A DNA stretch of 64,000 bases from Alphaproteobacteria bacterium (GTDB taxonomy: Bacteria; Pseudomonadota; Alphaproteobacteria; Caulobacterales; Maricaulaceae), in NCBI GenBank assembly GCA_016124675.1, contig WGNG01000009.1:310001-374000 (forward strand), in the 5' to 3' direction. Shown in pieces: positions 3,838 to 38,504 of this stretch. A program made the translations under genes and the position numbers. The notes beneath the pieces were generated by a model. It had not been told where the DNA came from and ran no database searches. It was given only the letters and a program-made list of their open reading frames with translations. Every line of letters begins with the position of its first letter. Positions within the stretch are counted from its first letter, which is position 1.

Positions 3838-3879
3838 GCCTTCTGGTCGGCAGCGCACGCAGGCGCCATATTCGCACGC

Positions 3880-4200
3880 ATGTCAGCACGCCCCCCCTCC
3901 GCCAGCCCTTCCCTTGTGCGCACGCTCACCTGCGTCCATGCGGCGCTGGGCGTGTGCGCCATCGCCGGCTTCCAGGCCGACCATGGACCGGCGCGCGTCA
4001 TCGTCGCCGGCCTTCTGGTGGCGGGCGTGATCGCGCTGATGGTGACGGGATATCTGGTGCGCGAGGTCGGCGGCCAGGCGCCCTATTCGGTGGTGCCCGG
4101 TTTTCCCGACCGTGCGCTCAGGCTCGCCGCCCTCGCCTGTGTGATCGTGTTCGGCGTGGTGAGCTGGCTCGGGCTGGAATACCGCCCGGACGGCGTATGA
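3880..4200 (+). CDS. small membrane protein of unknown function
   Basis: 106 residues with three likely transmembrane segments (about residues 16-32, 40-58 and 82-98). I do not recognise a family. The 4-bp ATGA overlap with the following HAD gene makes co-translation likely, and this is the best argument that it is a real gene. An element GCCATATTCGC lies 5 bases before the ATG, so the message may be nearly leaderless if that is a -10 region. A possible partner role for the HAD enzyme cannot be shown. Confidence 0.6.
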   Translation: MSARPPSASPSLVRTLTCVHAALGVCAIAGFQADHGPARVIVAGLLVAGVIALMVTGYLVREVGGQAPYSVVPGFPDRALRLAALACVIVFGVVSWLGLEYRPDGV

Positions 4201-5107: not shown

Positions 5108-6985
5108 CTATTGCACGCGGCGGAAGGTCTCGCACTCCAGGCAGGTGGCGTAGACGCCGCGCCGGTCCGTCATCATGTTGATGCGCTCCAGCTCGGCGCC
5201 GGCCTGCGAAGCCGCCTGACCGAACAGCCCGCCCGGCAGGACGCCGGAACCGTCAAACACCGCGCCTACGAAGGACAGGCCGATCATGTCCAGGAAGGCT
5301 TTGAAGGGATCGGCCTCCTCGACGAATTCCTTGACGCGGTACTCGCCCTCTTCCAGCCCGGCGCGGGCGGCGGCCGCCGCAATGGCCTCGTCATACCCGC
5401 CCAGATGATCGACCAGGCCGCGCTCATGGGCCTGGGCGCCCGTCCAGATACGGCCCTGGGCGACCGCGTCGACCTCGTCGCGGGTCATGTTGCGCGCTTC
5501 CCCGACAACGCCGAGGAATTGCTCATAACCCGCTTCGATATTCTGTTGCAGGATGTCGGCCCAGGCGCCGGTGACCCCGCCCGTCGCCGAGGGAGCGCGG
5601 GCGGTTTCGGTCAGCGCCACGCCGTCTTCATACACGCCGATTTCGGCCAGCGTGTTCTCAAAAGTCGGGATGAAGCCGAAAATGCCGATCGAGCCGGTGA
5701 TGGTGGTGGGTTCGGCCCAGATCTCGTGCGCGGGCGCCGCGATCCAGTAGCCGCCCGAGGCCGCCACGCCGCCCATGGAGGCGATGATGATCTTGCCCTG
5801 CTCGCGGGCCAGCACCAGCTCCTCGCGGATCAGTTCCGAGGCGAAGGCCGAGCCGCCGCCGGAGTCGATGCGCAAAACGATGGCCTTCACATCATCATCG
5901 AGACGCGCCTGACGGATGAGATTGGCATGCCGGTCGCCGCCGATCACGCCGCCATCGCCGTCACCTTCGAGGATCGTGCCCACCGCGTTGATCACGGCGA
6001 TGACATCGCCGCTGCCCGACGGCTCGGGCCGGCGCGCCTCGACATAGTCAAGGAAATTGCTCGCGCGGATGCGGTTCTCGTCCTCGTCGCGGCCGAAGCG
6101 CTCTTCCATCATGGTGCGCCAGGCGCCGCGCCCCGTGAGTGAGTCGACCAGGCCGGCCTCCTGCGCGACGCGGGCGACGTCGCCATCAACGCGCGCCAGG
6201 AGCTCGGGGAAGGTGTCGGCATAGGTTTGCAGCGCGCCCGCTTCCAGGCTGCGCGCGGCTTCAACACGGGCCTGATACGCGGCCCAGATATCGCCGAACA
6301 CATAGCGCGTGGCCTCGGCGGCCTCGGGCGACATGCTGTCGCCCAGGAAGGGCTCCAGCGCCGATTTGAACGTGCCCACGCGGTAGACGTTGACGGTCAC
6401 GTTGAGGCGCTCCAGCAGCGAGCGGAAGAAGGTGCGGTAGATCGCATAGCCATTGACCATGGCGCCGCCCATCTCGTGCATGTGCACTTCGCTGGCGTGC
6501 GAGGCGAGCATGTAGCCGCCCATGGAATAGTATTCACCGTAGGCGATGATCTCCTTGCCCGCTTCGCGAAAAGCGGTCATCTCCGCCGCGATGGCGTGCA
6601 TGGCCGCCGGCGTGGCGCCCACAAGGCCATCGAAATTCACCAGCAGCGCCGTGACCTCATCGTCTTGCGCGGCCAAGCGCAGGCCCTCGACCACGTCGCG
6701 CAAAAGGATCTGGTCCGGCGTCCCGCCGCCCAGAAGCGCCGAGGTGAAGGCGTCGCCGGGCGACACCTGGCTGGTCTCTTCCACAATCACGCCGGTGGGC
6801 GAGAAGTTCAGAAGACCGCCTTCAGCCATCTCGAACTCGTCATCCCCGCCGAACAGGCCGCCGATGAGGGAAATGACGACGATCAGGATGAGGATGAGAC
6901 CAAAGACCCGCAAAATCCCGTGCTGGACCAGGCCGATCCAGCGCCAGATCCTGGCGGCGATGTTTTCATTGGCGTGTTCAGACAT
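5108..6985 (-). CDS. sppA: signal peptide peptidase SppA, 67-kDa type
   Basis: Membrane-bound serine protease that degrades cleaved signal peptides. 625 residues, the usual length of the long (tandem-domain) form. One N-terminal transmembrane segment (about residues 25-50) anchors it. The catalytic dyad is split as in E. coli SppA: K207 in GTFKSALEPF and S410 in the ASGGYW motif, with the oxyanion region RIDSGGGSAFASE upstream. I chose the ATG at 6985, with GGGAG 8 bases upstream, over an in-frame codon at 7012. It lies downstream of the PhoD gene on the same strand. Strong family assignment. Confidence 0.95.
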   Translation of the reverse strand: MSEHANENIAARIWRWIGLVQHGILRVFGLILILIVVISLIGGLFGGDDEFEMAEGGLLNFSPTGVIVEETSQVSPGDAFTSALLGGGTPDQILLRDVVEGLRLAAQDDEVTALLVNFDGLVGATPAAMHAIAAEMTAFREAGKEIIAYGEYYSMGGYMLASHASEVHMHEMGGAMVNGYAIYRTFFRSLLERLNVTVNVYRVGTFKSALEPFLGDSMSPEAAEATRYVFGDIWAAYQARVEAARSLEAGALQTYADTFPELLARVDGDVARVAQEAGLVDSLTGRGAWRTMMEERFGRDEDENRIRASNFLDYVEARRPEPSGSGDVIAVINAVGTILEGDGDGGVIGGDRHANLIRQARLDDDVKAIVLRIDSGGGSAFASELIREELVLAREQGKIIIASMGGVAASGGYWIAAPAHEIWAEPTTITGSIGIFGFIPTFENTLAEIGVYEDGVALTETARAPSATGGVTGAWADILQQNIEAGYEQFLGVVGEARNMTRDEVDAVAQGRIWTGAQAHERGLVDHLGGYDEAIAAAAARAGLEEGEYRVKEFVEEADPFKAFLDMIGLSFVGAVFDGSGVLPGGLFGQAASQAGAELERINMMTDRRGVYATCLECETFRRVQ

Positions 6986-7081: not shown

Positions 7082-8809
7082 CTAGGACACCCGCTCAACC
7101 GGCTCCACCGCGCCACCGAGGGCCGGGCGGACCCGCCAGGCGCTCTCCACCTCGCCGGTGAACTCCCGGCTGAGGATGGTCGACACCCGCACATGCTCTG
7201 CGACGGCCTCTGCGCGGCTCAGCGTCAGGCGCAGATAGCCCCTGTCGCGCACATTATTGTGCAAGATCTGCACATTGCGCTCTTCCATCATCCGCCCGAA
7301 ATCCACGTCCGGCGCATTGACGGTCTCATAGGGCGAGGGGCTGGTCACCGAGGTGACGCCGAACTCGGTCCCGCGCCGCTCGCCCGAAGCGTCCAGAAGA
7401 TCATTCGTCCACATATTATGGGTGTCGCCGGTGAGCACGATCACATCGGCGCCCGCGGCGCGCAGCCGGTCGTAGAAGCGCTCGCGGTCCACCGGAAAGC
7501 CATCCCAGCTGTCGAGATTCATCGGCACGCCGTGGGCGGTGCGCTGGGCGAACGCCCACTGGAATTGCGAGGTCAGGCGCATGCCCAGACGCAGCCAGAA
7601 CGGTGTTTCAGTCATGAAATCGGGCGCTTCCAGCCGGCCCATCAGCACCTGATTGGCGATGACCCGCCAGGGCTTGCCCTCGGCCACCGAGGTAGACAGG
7701 GTTTGCGTGATGAACTCGCCCTGCACGTCCTCGATCAACCGGCGCTGCGGGTCGCCGATCACCGTCTCGCGCCAGTGGCGCACGGCAGCCTGGTTGGCAG
7801 GATCATCGGGATCGGCGCTGACCGGGATCGGGAAGCTGGAAAAATCGATCCTGGCCGACCGCGCCGTCAGGCGCGTCTCAAGGAACATCAGGGTCGCCAG
7901 ATCGCCGATCTCGACCGCGCCATAGCGGTTGATCAGGGTCTCGCCCTCGCGCACCGGCAGCCAGTCATGATAGGCGCGCATCGCCGCATTGCGGCGCTCG
8001 GTCCAGTCGCCCTCGGTGGCGGGATCGTGATTCTCCGCCCCGTCCGCCCAGGCGTCATTCGCCGATTCGTGATCGTCCCAGATCGGCAGCCAGGCCGAAG
8101 CGGCCTTGGCCGCCTGCAGGTCCGGGTCGAGGCAGTAGAGCGAATGGCGCGTGGCATAGTCGCCCGCCGACAGGGTTTCGGTGACCGGATCGATCATGCG
8201 CGACAGGCGCTCGGCATTGTCCGTGCCATATCCGCCCATGCCGTATTCGTAGAGATAATCACCCAGATGGATCATCAGATCCGCCTGCGCCGTCTCGGCG
8301 GCATGGCGATAGGCGTTGAAGAAGCCGCGCGGATAGTTGGAGCAGGAGAAGGCGGCGATCCTGAACGTCTCCACCTGGCCCACAGGCAGGGTGCGCGTGC
8401 GGCCCGTGGGCGAGGTCTGCGTCCCGTAGCGGAAGCGGTAATGATGCCAGACGCCCGGCGCCAGCCCTTCGGCGATGATCTTGACGGGCGTTGCGCCATG
8501 GGCGCTCAGCGCGCCGTCGCGCGGCGACGCCTCGCCGCTCCAGACGATCTGCGTGAAGCCCTCGTCCAGCGCCATCTCCGCCACGACCGGACCCGGCGGC
8601 GCGCCGTCAGCCGGCGTGATGGCGGTCCACAGCACGACGCTCTGCGCCCGCGGATCGCCCGACGCCACGCCGTGCTTGAACGCGCCCTCGCGGCGCGGCA
8701 GCGGGTCGAGCTGCGGCAGATCCTCGGCGCAGGCGCTGACCGCCACGCCCATGCCGGCGGCGCCCAGAAGCGCGCCCCGGCGCGTCAGCCTGAATGTGGT
8801 GTCGGCCAT
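7082..8809 (-). CDS. phoD: PhoD-family alkaline phosphatase/phosphodiesterase
   Basis: Exported metallophosphatase that frees phosphate from organic esters. 575 residues. The start has a twin-arginine signal (LTRRGALLGAAGMGVAVSAC), typical of PhoD. An N-terminal beta domain (GAFKHGVASGDPRAQSVVLWT) leads to the calcineurin-like core: AAFSCSNYPRGFFNAY, MIHLGDYLYEYG, WDDHESANDAW, and VLTGDTHNMWT, which supply the metal-binding Asp, Asn and His residues. It lies 143 bases downstream of a TonB-dependent receptor gene that has a PHO box, so it may be phosphate-regulated, though a possible hairpin stands between them. Family call is firm; regulation is inferred. Confidence 0.93.
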   Translation of the reverse strand: MADTTFRLTRRGALLGAAGMGVAVSACAEDLPQLDPLPRREGAFKHGVASGDPRAQSVVLWTAITPADGAPPGPVVAEMALDEGFTQIVWSGEASPRDGALSAHGATPVKIIAEGLAPGVWHHYRFRYGTQTSPTGRTRTLPVGQVETFRIAAFSCSNYPRGFFNAYRHAAETAQADLMIHLGDYLYEYGMGGYGTDNAERLSRMIDPVTETLSAGDYATRHSLYCLDPDLQAAKAASAWLPIWDDHESANDAWADGAENHDPATEGDWTERRNAAMRAYHDWLPVREGETLINRYGAVEIGDLATLMFLETRLTARSARIDFSSFPIPVSADPDDPANQAAVRHWRETVIGDPQRRLIEDVQGEFITQTLSTSVAEGKPWRVIANQVLMGRLEAPDFMTETPFWLRLGMRLTSQFQWAFAQRTAHGVPMNLDSWDGFPVDRERFYDRLRAAGADVIVLTGDTHNMWTNDLLDASGERRGTEFGVTSVTSPSPYETVNAPDVDFGRMMEERNVQILHNNVRDRGYLRLTLSRAEAVAEHVRVSTILSREFTGEVESAWRVRPALGGAVEPVERVS

Positions 8810-35442: not shown

Positions 35443-35531
35443 GGCCGCGCGGTATAGTCCAAACGCGGCGAAAATGCGAGGGCCGCAGCGCGCCCTTGAA
35501 AGGGGCGCCCGGTTCGCGTCAAGTGCGGCCC

Positions 35532-36302
35532 ATGAAGCTCATCTGCCACCCCCTTTCCGCCGGCGCCCCGCCGATCCGCCCTGCGTCCCAGAAGCGCCAG
35601 TGGATGGACGATACGCCCGAAGGCTTCGCCTATCGCTGCCTGCCCCTGGTGGTGGCCAACCAGCATGGCTGGGAGGTGTTTGCGCCTTTCGGCCTCACCG
35701 CGCGCTGGAATGGCGGGGTGCGGGTGGAGGATGTGGAGGTGGTGCTGGACCAGCCGCTCTCCATGGGGCAGGCCGGCTCGGCCATGGCCAATTTCGGCTC
35801 GGGCATCCTTACCTTCGAGATGGGCTTTCTTTTGCGCACCCCGCCGGGCTGGAATATCTGGGTCCAGGGCCCGGTGAACCAGCCCAAGGACGGAATATCG
35901 CCGCTCACCGGCGTGATCGAGACCGACTGGAGCCCCTATACCTTCACCATGAACTGGCGCTTCACCCGGCCGGGCGAGGTGCGGTTTGAAGCGGGCGAAG
36001 CCATCGCGCATCTGTTTCCGGTGCGCCGCGACCTGTTCGAGCGCGTGCAGCCCGAACTGCGCACCATTCACGCCGACCCGAAGACCGCCAGTCAGATGGA
36101 TATCTGGCGCGAGAGCCGCACCGATTTCATGAAGCGGCTGAAAACCCATGACCCCCAGGCGGTGGAGGAGAAATGGCAGAAGGGCTATTTCCGCGGCCTC
36201 CTGCCCGACGGCTCCAGGGGTCCGGCCGATCACAAGACCAGGCTGAAGGTGAAGCCGTTCACCGAAGCCCCCGCCCCCGGCAAGCCGGCGCGCAAGCGCT
36301 GA
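35532..36302 (+). CDS. DUF6065-like protein, unknown
   Basis: 256 residues that resemble DUF6065, an uncharacterised bacterial family. Conserved-looking stretches are [78 protein letters not shown] and [20 protein letters not shown]. These Trp/Gly-rich beta blocks suggest an all-beta catalytic or binding domain. No motif gives an activity. I chose the ATG at 35532; the frame is open from 35496. Its stop is 39 bases before the first copy of the direct repeat that borders the islet. Confidence 0.72.
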
Positions 36303-36341
36303 GGGCAGGACGGCGGAGGGCACCGTACGCGGTCGGCCGGG

Positions 36342-36374
36342 GCCATATTCGCCTTCCCCGATCCTGAAAACTTT
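36342..36374. repeat. direct repeat, left copy, bordering the islet
   Basis: 33 bases beginning gccatattcgccttccccga and ending tgaaaacttt. It matches the right copy at 37586-37618 at 31 of 33 positions; the two differences are at 36362-36363. The repeats are in the same orientation and enclose the AT-richer stretch with the HEPN-like and membrane-protein genes. Confidence 0.85.
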
Positions 36375-36408
36375 GGCGATTGTATAGATGACTTAACAGG
36401 CGCCAAAG

Positions 36409-36585
36409 GTGTCTGAGAATCATGGGGTTGTCGTGCTCACGGATGAGATGGAGAAGACGGTATCGGCTTTGTTTGACTGCATTACTACCGATGAGGCTAT
36501 GCCTCAGACGGTTTATCGCGCTCTAGATACCGCGCTTGAACCTGTGGCAACAATTCGCCTCTCAATGCTTTCAGAGCAGCAATAA
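36409..36585 (+). CDS. possible 58-residue protein, islet left side
   Basis: 58 codons from a GTG (MSENHGVVVLTDEMEKTVSA to RLSMLSEQQ), Glu/Ala/Leu-rich and probably helical. Shine-Dalgarno support is weak (CCAAAG). It overlaps the 3' part of the opposite-strand HEPN-like gene by 89 bases. Both frames read as plausible protein there, and the opposite one is better supported, so this one may be chance. Confidence 0.22.
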   Translation: MSENHGVVVLTDEMEKTVSALFDCITTDEAMPQTVYRALDTALEPVATIRLSMLSEQQ

Positions 36586-37069
36586 ATTCGTCAATGCCTT
36601 CAATCCCCTCTTTTAGATCGTCTGCGGTAACGGGCCGCCCTTCCGGAAAGGCTCGTTTAGGGCCAACAATTCCATGTTTCTTGGCTTCTTGATCCCAGTT
36701 GCCAGTTAAGTCTTTGACGGCCCAGCATCCTAGAGCTTCGGAGCGAGCCCAAGCGCCATGAGCCAGCAAATCGCGGAACTTTTTGATATCAGAGGAAGCG
36801 GTTTTCAAAGCCTTCAGGTTGACGCTTTGGATGGTGTACCCGCGCAAGAAGGCGATTTGCTCGATGAGGTTAAGTCGGTCTTCCAGACGGCCCTCTCTGA
36901 CGGAAAGCCGCCCTATTTCGGGTCCAACTTCAACCATCATATAGACAATGCCTTGGGCGTAATGTTCGGCGAAGGCAAACCGCGTTATAATGCGGCCAAT
37001 TTCCTCGCAGATATCCCTTGGGATGTCATATCGAGTAATTGTGGTTTCTCTAGAAAAGGTCTTTTTCAT
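36497..37069 (-). CDS. HEPN-like accessory protein in the islet, unknown
   Basis: 190 residues from an ATG at 37069 (MKKTFSRETTITRYDIPRDI), mostly helical. The segment KKFRDLLAHGAW holds R99-x4-H104, the RX4-6H pattern of HEPN-domain ribonucleases and related folds; an acidic/hydrophobic helix precedes it (FAEHYAQGIVYMMVEVG). No partner nucleotidyltransferase is present. The frame is open upstream to 37132, but the sequence there does not look like protein. Base use (ATA, AGA and other A/T-rich codons) differs from the surrounding genes, suggesting transfer. Family assignment is by motif only, and a non-HEPN helical protein is possible. Confidence 0.5.
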   Translation of the reverse strand: MKKTFSRETTITRYDIPRDICEEIGRIITRFAFAEHYAQGIVYMMVEVGPEIGRLSVREGRLEDRLNLIEQIAFLRGYTIQSVNLKALKTASSDIKKFRDLLAHGAWARSEALGCWAVKDLTGNWDQEAKKHGIVGPKRAFPEGRPVTADDLKEGIEGIDEFIAALKALRGELLPQVQARYLERDKPSEA

Positions 37070-37143
37070 GCCCACACAAGATGAAGAGCACCGCGACGGA
37101 GCGCTAAAGCGGATTCTGGAAACGCCTCGCACATTGCATCAGC

Positions 37144-37431
37144 CTAAGGAGCAGAAGCCAAGTAAGAAAGGTATGAGATGACCATGGCCGCTATCGCTAT
37201 CGGAACCGCAATAATCGCCGCTATTGCGGCGGCCCATGCAGCATTCTTCGCACTTCGAGCGATGCGCAAGCTTTCATAGTTGGAAGACTTTTTGGCTTCC
37301 AACTCGGCATGTTGTAGCCAAGCCTCGGCTTGAGCAAGCCTGTTTCCGGCGTAGACGCCAGCCGAAACCTTCTTGCGAGTTGCCTCTTCACCATCGCGCT
37401 GAAAGTCGGGCCAGTAGTCATTTTGCGTCAT
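37144..37431 (-). CDS. small single-pass membrane protein in the islet
   Basis: 95 residues from the ATG at 37431 with GGGGGA just upstream. An Arg/Glu/Gln-rich helical cytoplasmic part (GNRLAQAEAWLQHAELEAKK, YESLRIARSAKNAAW) is followed by one C-terminal hydrophobic segment (about residues 69-91, AAAIAAIIAVPIAIAAMVIS). It lies 74 bases upstream of, and in the same direction as, the HEPN-like gene, so the two may be one transcript. Proteins of this build are common in genomic islands but have no known function that I can name. Confidence 0.55.
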   Translation of the reverse strand: MTQNDYWPDFQRDGEEATRKKVSAGVYAGNRLAQAEAWLQHAELEAKKSSNYESLRIARSAKNAAWAAAIAAIIAVPIAIAAMVISYLSYLASAP

Positions 37432-37585
37432 CGATTCCCCCATCGGACGAAGTGTACACCCCTAATCTCAGGCGAGCCAGAGGCTATTATTCCGACGATA
37501 GGTAAGGCGCTTGCCCTCTGCATCGCGCAGGATGGCACCTCAGCGCAGTACGGCCACAGGCTATGATCCTAAGCCGCCGCGGCGA

Positions 37586-37618
37586 GCCATATTCGCCTTC
37601 CCCGAATCTGAAAACTTT
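37586..37618. repeat. direct repeat, right copy, in the nuclease leader
   Basis: 33 bases beginning gccatattcgccttccccga and ending tgaaaacttt, 14 bases before the ATG of the nuclease gene (37633). Compared with the left copy, aat replaces tcc-side bases at 37606-37607. If the element inserted here, this copy restores the original promoter or leader. Confidence 0.85.
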
Positions 37619-37632
37619 CCTACATTCGGCTC

Positions 37633-38115
37633 ATGAGAGCAGTCTTTTCCCTATTCGCGTGCGCCATGGGGTTGATGCAACCGGCGATGGCGCAGGACAT
37701 TCCCGGCCCCGTGCCGGCGGAGATTCTGCATATTGTGGACGGGGATACGGTGGGCGTGCGCGCCCATACCTGGCCGGGTCAGTATGTGGAGATCCGGGTG
37801 CGCCTGCGCGGGGCCGATGCGCCGGAGGTGCGCCGCGTCGCCTGTGAGGCCGAGCGCATCAAGGGCCATGAGGCGACAGAATTTACCCGAAACTGGCTGA
37901 GCGCACCGGGTGGGGAGGGCTTTGCGCCGGTCATGCTGACCGAGATCGGCCCGGACAGTTTCTGGGGCCGCGTGGTGGCGCGCATGGTGCGCGAGGCGGA
38001 CGGCGCCGATCTGTCCGATGACCTCATCTCCGCCGGGCTGGCCGTGCCTTATCGTCAGCCAGGACCGTGGTGCGATACAGGGACGGCGGCGGCGGCCGGA
38101 CCGTCCTTGCGCTGA
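37633..38115 (+). CDS. exported thermonuclease-like (SNase) protein
   Basis: 160 residues. A signal peptide (MRAVFSLFACAMGLMQPAMA) is followed by the SNase OB fold: ILHIVDGDTVGVRAHTW (metal-binding DGDT), VRLRGADAPEVRR (Arg and Asp-Ala-Pro-Glu block) and ERIKGHEATEFTRNWL, then the third block DSFWGRVVARM. It is shorter than staphylococcal nuclease because no long C-terminal helix remains, and many such alphaproteobacterial proteins have unproven nuclease activity. The last 61 bases overlap the convergent DUF2061 gene. Confidence 0.82.
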   Translation: MRAVFSLFACAMGLMQPAMAQDIPGPVPAEILHIVDGDTVGVRAHTWPGQYVEIRVRLRGADAPEVRRVACEAERIKGHEATEFTRNWLSAPGGEGFAPVMLTEIGPDSFWGRVVARMVREADGADLSDDLISAGLAVPYRQPGPWCDTGTAAAAGPSLR

Positions 38116-38366
38116 GCCGCCGCGTTCTGACGCCCCGCACGGCCCCAGGCGCGCTCGTGCAGCACATAGGCCACGGTCTGCACCACCGGCTCGATCAGCC
38201 CCACCGCCAGCGCCGCGCGCCAGTCGCGGGTCAGCGCAAACACCACCGCCATCGCCACGACCATGTGGGTCAGGCCATAGGTCAGTGTTTTCAACAGGCC
38301 CCGCGGCACGCCCGGCAGGCGGGCGGGCGCAGGCGTGTGAAACAGGGCGCGGGCCAGGGCGGTCAT
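38055..38366 (-). CDS. DUF2061 membrane protein
   Basis: 103 residues. Two hydrophobic segments (about 27-44 and 52-70) with the DUF2061 pattern GLLKTLTYGLTHMVVAMAVV and VVQTVAYVLHERAWGR, then a low-complexity Ala/Gly tail. Start at 38366; 27 further codons in frame upstream look non-protein. The 3' end overlaps the convergent nuclease gene by 61 bases, so the two transcripts would be complementary there. Function unknown. Confidence 0.75.
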   Translation of the reverse strand: MTALARALFHTPAPARLPGVPRGLLKTLTYGLTHMVVAMAVVFALTRDWRAALAVGLIEPVVQTVAYVLHERAWGRAGRQNAAAQRKDGPAAAAVPVSHHGPG

Positions 38367-38504
38367 GGCGATCCTCTCAAACCGGTGAGACTTGAGAATG
38401 GATCGCAAATGTGGCCATAGCAAGCGCCCGGGCGTTATCGGCCCCATAAATAATTCAGTTCAGCGCTATAGGCTTGCTCTATTTGAGGGCCACCCGGCCC
38501 GCGC

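Follow-up and report, generated by a model that had tools for sequence, protein, structure and literature searches.

The AT-richer islet that separates a DUF6065 gene from a nuclease-like gene in the window, i.e. the whole 64,000-nucleotide stretch of DNA analyzed here, is in all probability a truncated, transposase-less relic of a passenger-carrying transposon of the IS1595 family. This assignment refers to the identity of the islet, with the origin of 25 bp of its flanking repeats and the function of its cargo judged separately below, and it is based on the presence of an empty site in related genomes, a terminal repeat at the junction, a scrap of transposase sequence, and the same order of parts elsewhere. 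Read along the minus strand, the islet consists of the transposase tail, Orf2, Orf1, and the cargo-side terminal repeat. Such a relic should be unable to move by itself. The features of the islet and of its immediate surroundings are as follows.

35532–36302, plus strand: DUF6065 gene, the left host neighbor (Pfam PF19541, E = 1.6e-100)
36342–36374, plus strand: left copy of the 33-bp repeat, with 25 bp of leader sequence followed by the 8 bp inferred to be the target duplication; the sequence to its left aligns with the empty sites of relatives
36367–36374, no strand assigned: AAAACTTT, left copy of the presumed 8-bp target duplication, directly adjacent to the terminal repeat in the same position as in eight elements of the family
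36375–36399, plus strand: IS1595-family terminal inverted repeat GGCGATTGTATAGATGACTTAACAG, the cargo-side end (score of 26.2 bits under a matrix built on 21 ends that were taken from other loci)
36497–37069, minus strand: Orf1, 190 residues from the ATG (211 from an earlier GTG), HEPN-like passenger with relatives beside IS1595 transposases (14-protein alignment)
36758–36775, minus strand: codons R99-D-L-L-A-H104 of Orf1, a HEPN-type R[ND]xxxH signature, with R99 and H104 as the sole invariant columns
37144–37443, minus strand: Orf2, 99 residues with one hydrophobic stretch (judged by eye), a passenger 49% identical over 80 residues to that of the element L037
37471–37539, minus strand: open frame with a scrap of the C terminus of an IS1595 transposase (AILRDAEGKRLTYRRNN...), ranking first among the 1762 six-frame segments of the window (E = 0.022)
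37586–37618, plus strand: right copy of the 33-bp repeat, which includes the nuclease leader; its last 8 bp (37611–37618) are the second AAAACTTT, and its right flank aligns with the empty sites
37633–38115, plus strand: nuclease-like gene of the staphylococcal-nuclease type, the right host neighbor (Pfam SNase, E = 0.0018, under the curated cut-off)

The islet and its empty site in related genomes

The two copies of the direct repeat are identical at 31 of 33 positions (94%) and lie 1244 bp apart, start to start. A match of this quality was observed once in the region 35500–38500, compared with none in eight simple (mononucleotide) shuffles. The GC content of the insert is 0.527, and the two 500-bp steps that fall inside it have values of 0.520 and 0.522, compared with 0.616–0.776 for the remaining steps of the window. 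The same deviation is found at the third codon positions, where GC amounts to 0.51 in Orf1 and 0.55 in Orf2, compared with 0.86, 0.78, 0.89, and 0.87 in four neighboring genes. The nuclease ATG is located 14 bases past the end of the right copy. All these features, namely the 33-bp repeat enclosing about 1.2 kb of AT-richer DNA, two minus-strand genes with deviant base use, and the distance of the right copy from the nuclease gene, had been described in an initial annotation made from the sequence, and they are confirmed here.

The nuclease was matched in 26 of the 61 genomes searched, including its own, and is 80–86% identical in five other genomes of the same genus. In each of these five congeners the DUF6065 gene (88–92% identical) is located directly upstream of the nuclease, with 44–78 bp between the stop codon of the former and the ATG of the latter, and with one repeat-like leader in this gap. 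In seven further congeners the nuclease is 44–54% identical and no DUF6065 match is present in the stretch that was fetched, so that these loci count neither for nor against an empty site. It is on the outer sides of the repeat pair, to the left of the left copy and to the right of the right one, that the window aligns with the relatives, and joining the two flanks with a single copy of the repeat yields the arrangement seen in the relatives. Thus, the empty site with one repeat copy, for which the initial annotation had recommended a search, is found in all five comparable loci, as is the DUF6065–nuclease order that the removal of the insert and one copy had been expected to restore.

The transposon end, the probable transposase scrap, and the 33-bp duplication

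The terminal repeat at the left junction is clearly set apart by its score of 26.2 bits, compared with 6.5 bits for the next-best site when both strands of the window are considered and with 15.7 bits for the best site in 200 shuffles of the insert, although it is placed a little under the range of the 21 training ends (29.0–43.1 bits). These ends come from other loci and were chosen by the pattern T[AG]T[AG]..TGAC, not all of them being confirmed as pairs. The left junction also resembles the inverted repeat of the L037 element. The same matrix scan revealed no second, inverse terminal repeat anywhere in the window, and the islet is therefore a relic rather than a complete element.

The transposase scrap was identified with a profile of 46 transposases from the surveyed loci plus L037 and L071, at least two of which are incomplete. 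The match is short, with the next-best segment of the window at E = 0.33, and tblastn gives 0.058 for the same scrap. It is located between Orf2 and the right repeat, upstream of Orf2, which is its place in other elements; an in-frame stop precedes it, and a possible out-of-frame continuation extends upstream up to position 37585. The earlier statement that no integrase or transposase is present inside the repeats holds for a complete recombinase, but it does not extend to this C-terminal scrap. No IS1595 transposase was matched at E = 0.001 in the islet's own genome.

Exact 8-bp duplications abut the ends of eight elements with paired ends (L037, L040, L049, L054, L077, L082, L116, and L135), in seven of which the end starts with GG, and in L049 with CCC. 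In L097, no 8-bp duplication accompanies the candidate pair of ends; the left member of this pair, which does not start with GG, is doubtful, and this locus is outside the count of eight. One of the eight loci, L082 (G138:C85, 1400–3780), contains two oppositely oriented IS1595-type elements, placed back to back, whose ends are separated by only ~20 bp. Eight-bp repeats, preferably A/T-rich, are also given for ISApl4, a member of the IS1016 group of the IS1595 family (PMC12561309). In the islet, AAAACTTT is present on both sides, but as the last 8 bp of a 33-bp duplication. Since a duplication of 33 bp is not made by the IS1595 family, a second event has to be assumed for the other 25 bp, and the long repeats have the appearance of an extended target duplication rather than of integration sites.

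The mechanism that we consider somewhat probable attributes the extra 25 bp to an illegitimate join of a broken element to an empty allele. An IS1595-family transposon with its passengers would have inserted between the DUF6065 and nuclease genes, creating the 8-bp duplication of AAAACTTT, and would later have been broken within the transposase gene. The illegitimate join would then have connected the broken end to an empty allele at a point 33 bp left of the insertion, for instance through one-sided homologous recombination that followed the uptake of DNA. After such a join, the islet would be followed on its right by 25 bp of leader and the 8-bp target, and the nuclease leader, with its putative promoter, would be left whole. 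Donor and recipient alleles could account for the two mismatches between the repeat copies, although later mutation explains them equally well. At these two positions each copy matches L003 once and L004 once, thus the differences give no sign of which copy is ancestral.

Where just the origin of the repeat is concerned, a one-step alternative has a lesser, though appreciable, probability. In one-ended transposition, the single intact end of an already truncated element would be joined to the target, and host repair would attach the ragged end 33 bp away, giving the 33-bp duplication at once; this agrees with the presence of just one terminal repeat, with the exact stop of the direct repeat at that terminal repeat, and with the near identity of the two copies. 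A transposase would have to be supplied from elsewhere, however, and none is found in the genome at present; the end product is the same as that of the two-step model, and the sequence does not separate them. We regard as improbable, again for the repeat origin only, a tandem duplication of the leader, with a transposon landing where the first copy ended and a subsequent deletion extending to the second, since none of the five empty sites has a tandem leader and the insertion would need to have occurred by coincidence precisely at the end of the duplicated unit, even if the same final structure would result with a plain deletion as the last step, and even if the repeats are 94% identical. The reading of the repeats as 33-bp attachment cores of a cargo element, integrated site-specifically by an integrase acting in trans, as proposed in the initial annotation, is very improbable and was rejected, since the left end of the element is an IS1595-type terminal repeat just inside the left copy, with only the last 8 bp of that copy at the position of a target duplication, a transposase scrap is found inside, and no other near-copy of the repeat, around another insert or elsewhere, was listed by BLAST of the whole islet against its own genome, despite the direct repeats at both ends, the lack of a complete recombinase, and the empty site in relatives. 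What is retained of that proposal is an insertion with a duplicated target and cargo genes.

Duplication of a promoter had been considered as well, with the argument that the repeat core also precedes the gene at 3880. The sequence GCCATATTCGC is indeed present at 3865, but it begins there 15 bases before the ATG, compared with 47 for the right repeat, and this copy looks unrelated to the repeat; with its different spacing, GCCATATTCGC was set aside as a promoter motif. With at most one mismatch, this 12-mer occurs six times in the window, compared with 0.63 expected, and two of the six occurrences are the repeats themselves. Near-copies of GCCATATTCGCC are located at 8225, 16866, and 44080, all on the plus strand, and, counted with the repeats, they exceed the number in shuffles; they are possibly coding repeats of small hydrophobic residues. 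Promoter duplication may nevertheless be true in effect, because the right copy contains a leader block common to the five relatives (TTCCC or TTTCC, followed by TTTCCTA), in which a putative promoter may be located.

The passenger genes

Relatives of Orf1 were found at E = 0.01 in two of 384 other genomes of the class. The locus L106 (G113:C86) presents the same order as the window, with a transposase tail, a small membrane protein, the Orf1 relative (31% identity), and a terminal repeat, and its membrane protein is not recognized by the Orf2 profile. The Orf1 relative of G408:C72 has an IS1595 transposase upstream of it. Related transposases are present in 73 of 385 genomes of the class sample, and a three-sequence Orf1 profile matched nine of these 73 at 10 places, two seeds included; the set was chosen for IS1595 transposases and gives no frequency. 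A phylum sample of 397 other genomes yielded six with matches to the same profile.

Seven of the 16 other loci of the Orf1 family (two in G113, as well as those in G408, G076, G045, G607, and G577) have an IS1595 transposase upstream on the same strand, including one tail and one fragment. Another locus has only a downstream terminal repeat, and in another one a transposase is located on the other strand, ~3 kb away. The remaining seven have no IS1595 part in the stretch examined, some of them being on short contigs, and these loci count against the IS1595 identity. Among the six Orf1-family loci of the unselected phylum sample, three have the transposase upstream on the same strand. Two elements, G113:C59, where the transposase and the Orf1 relative are placed within ~1.9 kb, and G076:C14, show both ends together with 8-bp target duplications. 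The terminal repeat is located 120–175 bp past the stop codon of the Orf1-family gene in five loci, including the window. In L127 (G363:C22, 3114–3860), an Orf1-family gene is followed by an IS1595-type terminal repeat, with no transposase or second end within 6 kb; this is possibly a second transposase-less derivative. Orf1 had no match at E = 0.001 in 60 relatives, nor any in plasmids, phages, viral contigs (also by profile), or a collection of genome contigs.

Alignment of 14 proteins of the Orf1 family reveals only R99 and H104 as invariant residues, with N or D following the arginine, and the position of E35 is occupied by glutamate in 12 rows and by aspartate in two. The alignment omits L126, L131, L132, and L133, which have awkward starts or weaker scores, as well as L037, and the motif is present in all five. 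The HEPN pattern, as given by Anantharaman et al. 2013 (PMC3710099), is Rx4-6H, with the residue after R being mostly N, D, or H, and with a second conserved acidic residue. R[ND]xxxH is found in all 16 other Orf1-family loci, which were collected with a profile itself containing the motif, and also in L037 and L070, which were found via Orf2 and not via the motif. Since it also occurs by chance in long frames (four times in L071), R[ND]xxxH alone is no proof.

Orf1 itself matches none of the Pfam or NCBIfam models. When the 14 members were scanned, single ones matched HEPN_Cthe2314, HEPN_Apea, and HEPN_RiboL-PSP at E = 0.032, 0.11, and 0.14, respectively, and unrelated families ranked above HEPN in the same scan, namely Anticodon_3 (E = 0.00071) and a herpesvirus domain (E = 0.0023), with one member each. 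PADLOC gave no match for the five proteins scanned beyond two weak ones to JetC, parts of which Orf1 matches weakly. A structure model of Orf1 predicted from the single sequence is of very low confidence (mean pLDDT 36.8; helices only), and a profile search of solved structures turned up unrelated proteins, among them designed repeat proteins, with a best E of 0.0057 for the latter. Judged by its motif, Orf1 likely belongs to the HEPN superfamily, and it may be an RNase of the toxin or defense type, anchored or controlled by Orf2.

Orf2 has one weak match in the 384 other genomes of the class (G195) and none in plasmids, and only L070 and L071 were matched in an alignment search. A scan of viral contigs with Orf2 led to L037, a two-ended IS1595-family transposon bounded by 33-nt inverted repeats (3913–3945 and 6933–6965), which carries a DDE_Tnp_IS1595 transposase (E = 5.1e-38), an Orf2-like gene, and, farther along, a gene encoding the sequence RNTAAHG. 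The Orf2-like protein of L037 is not matched in plasmids either, and its HEPN-like gene, used as a query, matched only itself. BLASTP gave no real match between the latter and Orf1, and the two would be linked by motif and context.

Among the five loci of the Orf2 family (the window, L037, L070, L071, and L039), a neighbor with the HEPN motif is seen in the window, L037, and L070, and an IS1595 transposase or a scrap of it in the window, L037, and L071. Such co-occurrence makes it plausible that Orf1 and Orf2 form a two-gene module, and a weak hint at retention of the passengers is provided by both reading frames being open while the transposase is broken. In L070 (JASMAE010000318.1, 2890–3677), the Orf2-like gene overlaps a gene with RNKIIH head to head, and no transposase was found on the short contig. 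The distant Orf2-like gene of L039 (G195, 1492–1767), with no transposon part seen, is located directly between what we take to be an enoyl-reductase-like and a chorismate-synthase-like gene.

Comparison with known systems

An apparent integrase-type islet thus becomes readable as a transposon relic, and the 33-bp repeat serves as a caution that long direct repeats flanking an islet are not necessarily attachment sites. The cargo points to a HEPN-like protein family that is unnamed in the curated libraries used and is carried by a common transposon family, and, if it is active, IS1595-family transposons spread toxin or defense genes. We can speculate, tentatively, that a so far unrecognized HEPN RNase, accompanied in some cases by a small membrane protein, is widespread in the IS1595 transposons of Alphaproteobacteria and serves there as an addiction or anti-phage module; in the islet, this module would have outlived the transposase and would persist intact as a captured pair of host genes.

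IS1595-family elements with passenger genes were reportedly described by Siguier and colleagues in 2009. The islet resembles such elements in the sequence of the terminal repeat, in the putative transposase C terminus, in the placement of its cargo on the transposase strand, downstream of that gene, and in the 8 bp at the position of the target duplication, whereas it differs from them in that the transposase is mostly gone, one end is missing, and the flanking repeat extends over 33 rather than 8 bp. No description of HEPN cargo in IS1595 elements was found in the open-licence literature, and in the accessible text of PMC9296519 the mentions of IS1595 and of HEPN are unrelated to each other.

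In turn, Orf1 is similar to the HEPN RNase superfamily, as characterized in PMC3710099, in its R-[ND]-x3-H motif, in the polar residue after the arginine, and in the upstream acidic residue E35, but it matches no curated HEPN family, and its scanned relatives match such families weakly, with one member each. The closing comparison is with TnSod9, which, according to PMC7157771, is a transposon of the Tn3 family with a HEPN/MNT toxin–antitoxin pair. TnSod9 and the islet share a HEPN-type passenger within a transposon, although TnSod9 belongs to a different transposon family, and its HEPN protein is paired with an MNT nucleotidyltransferase, where the islet has a small membrane-type protein.
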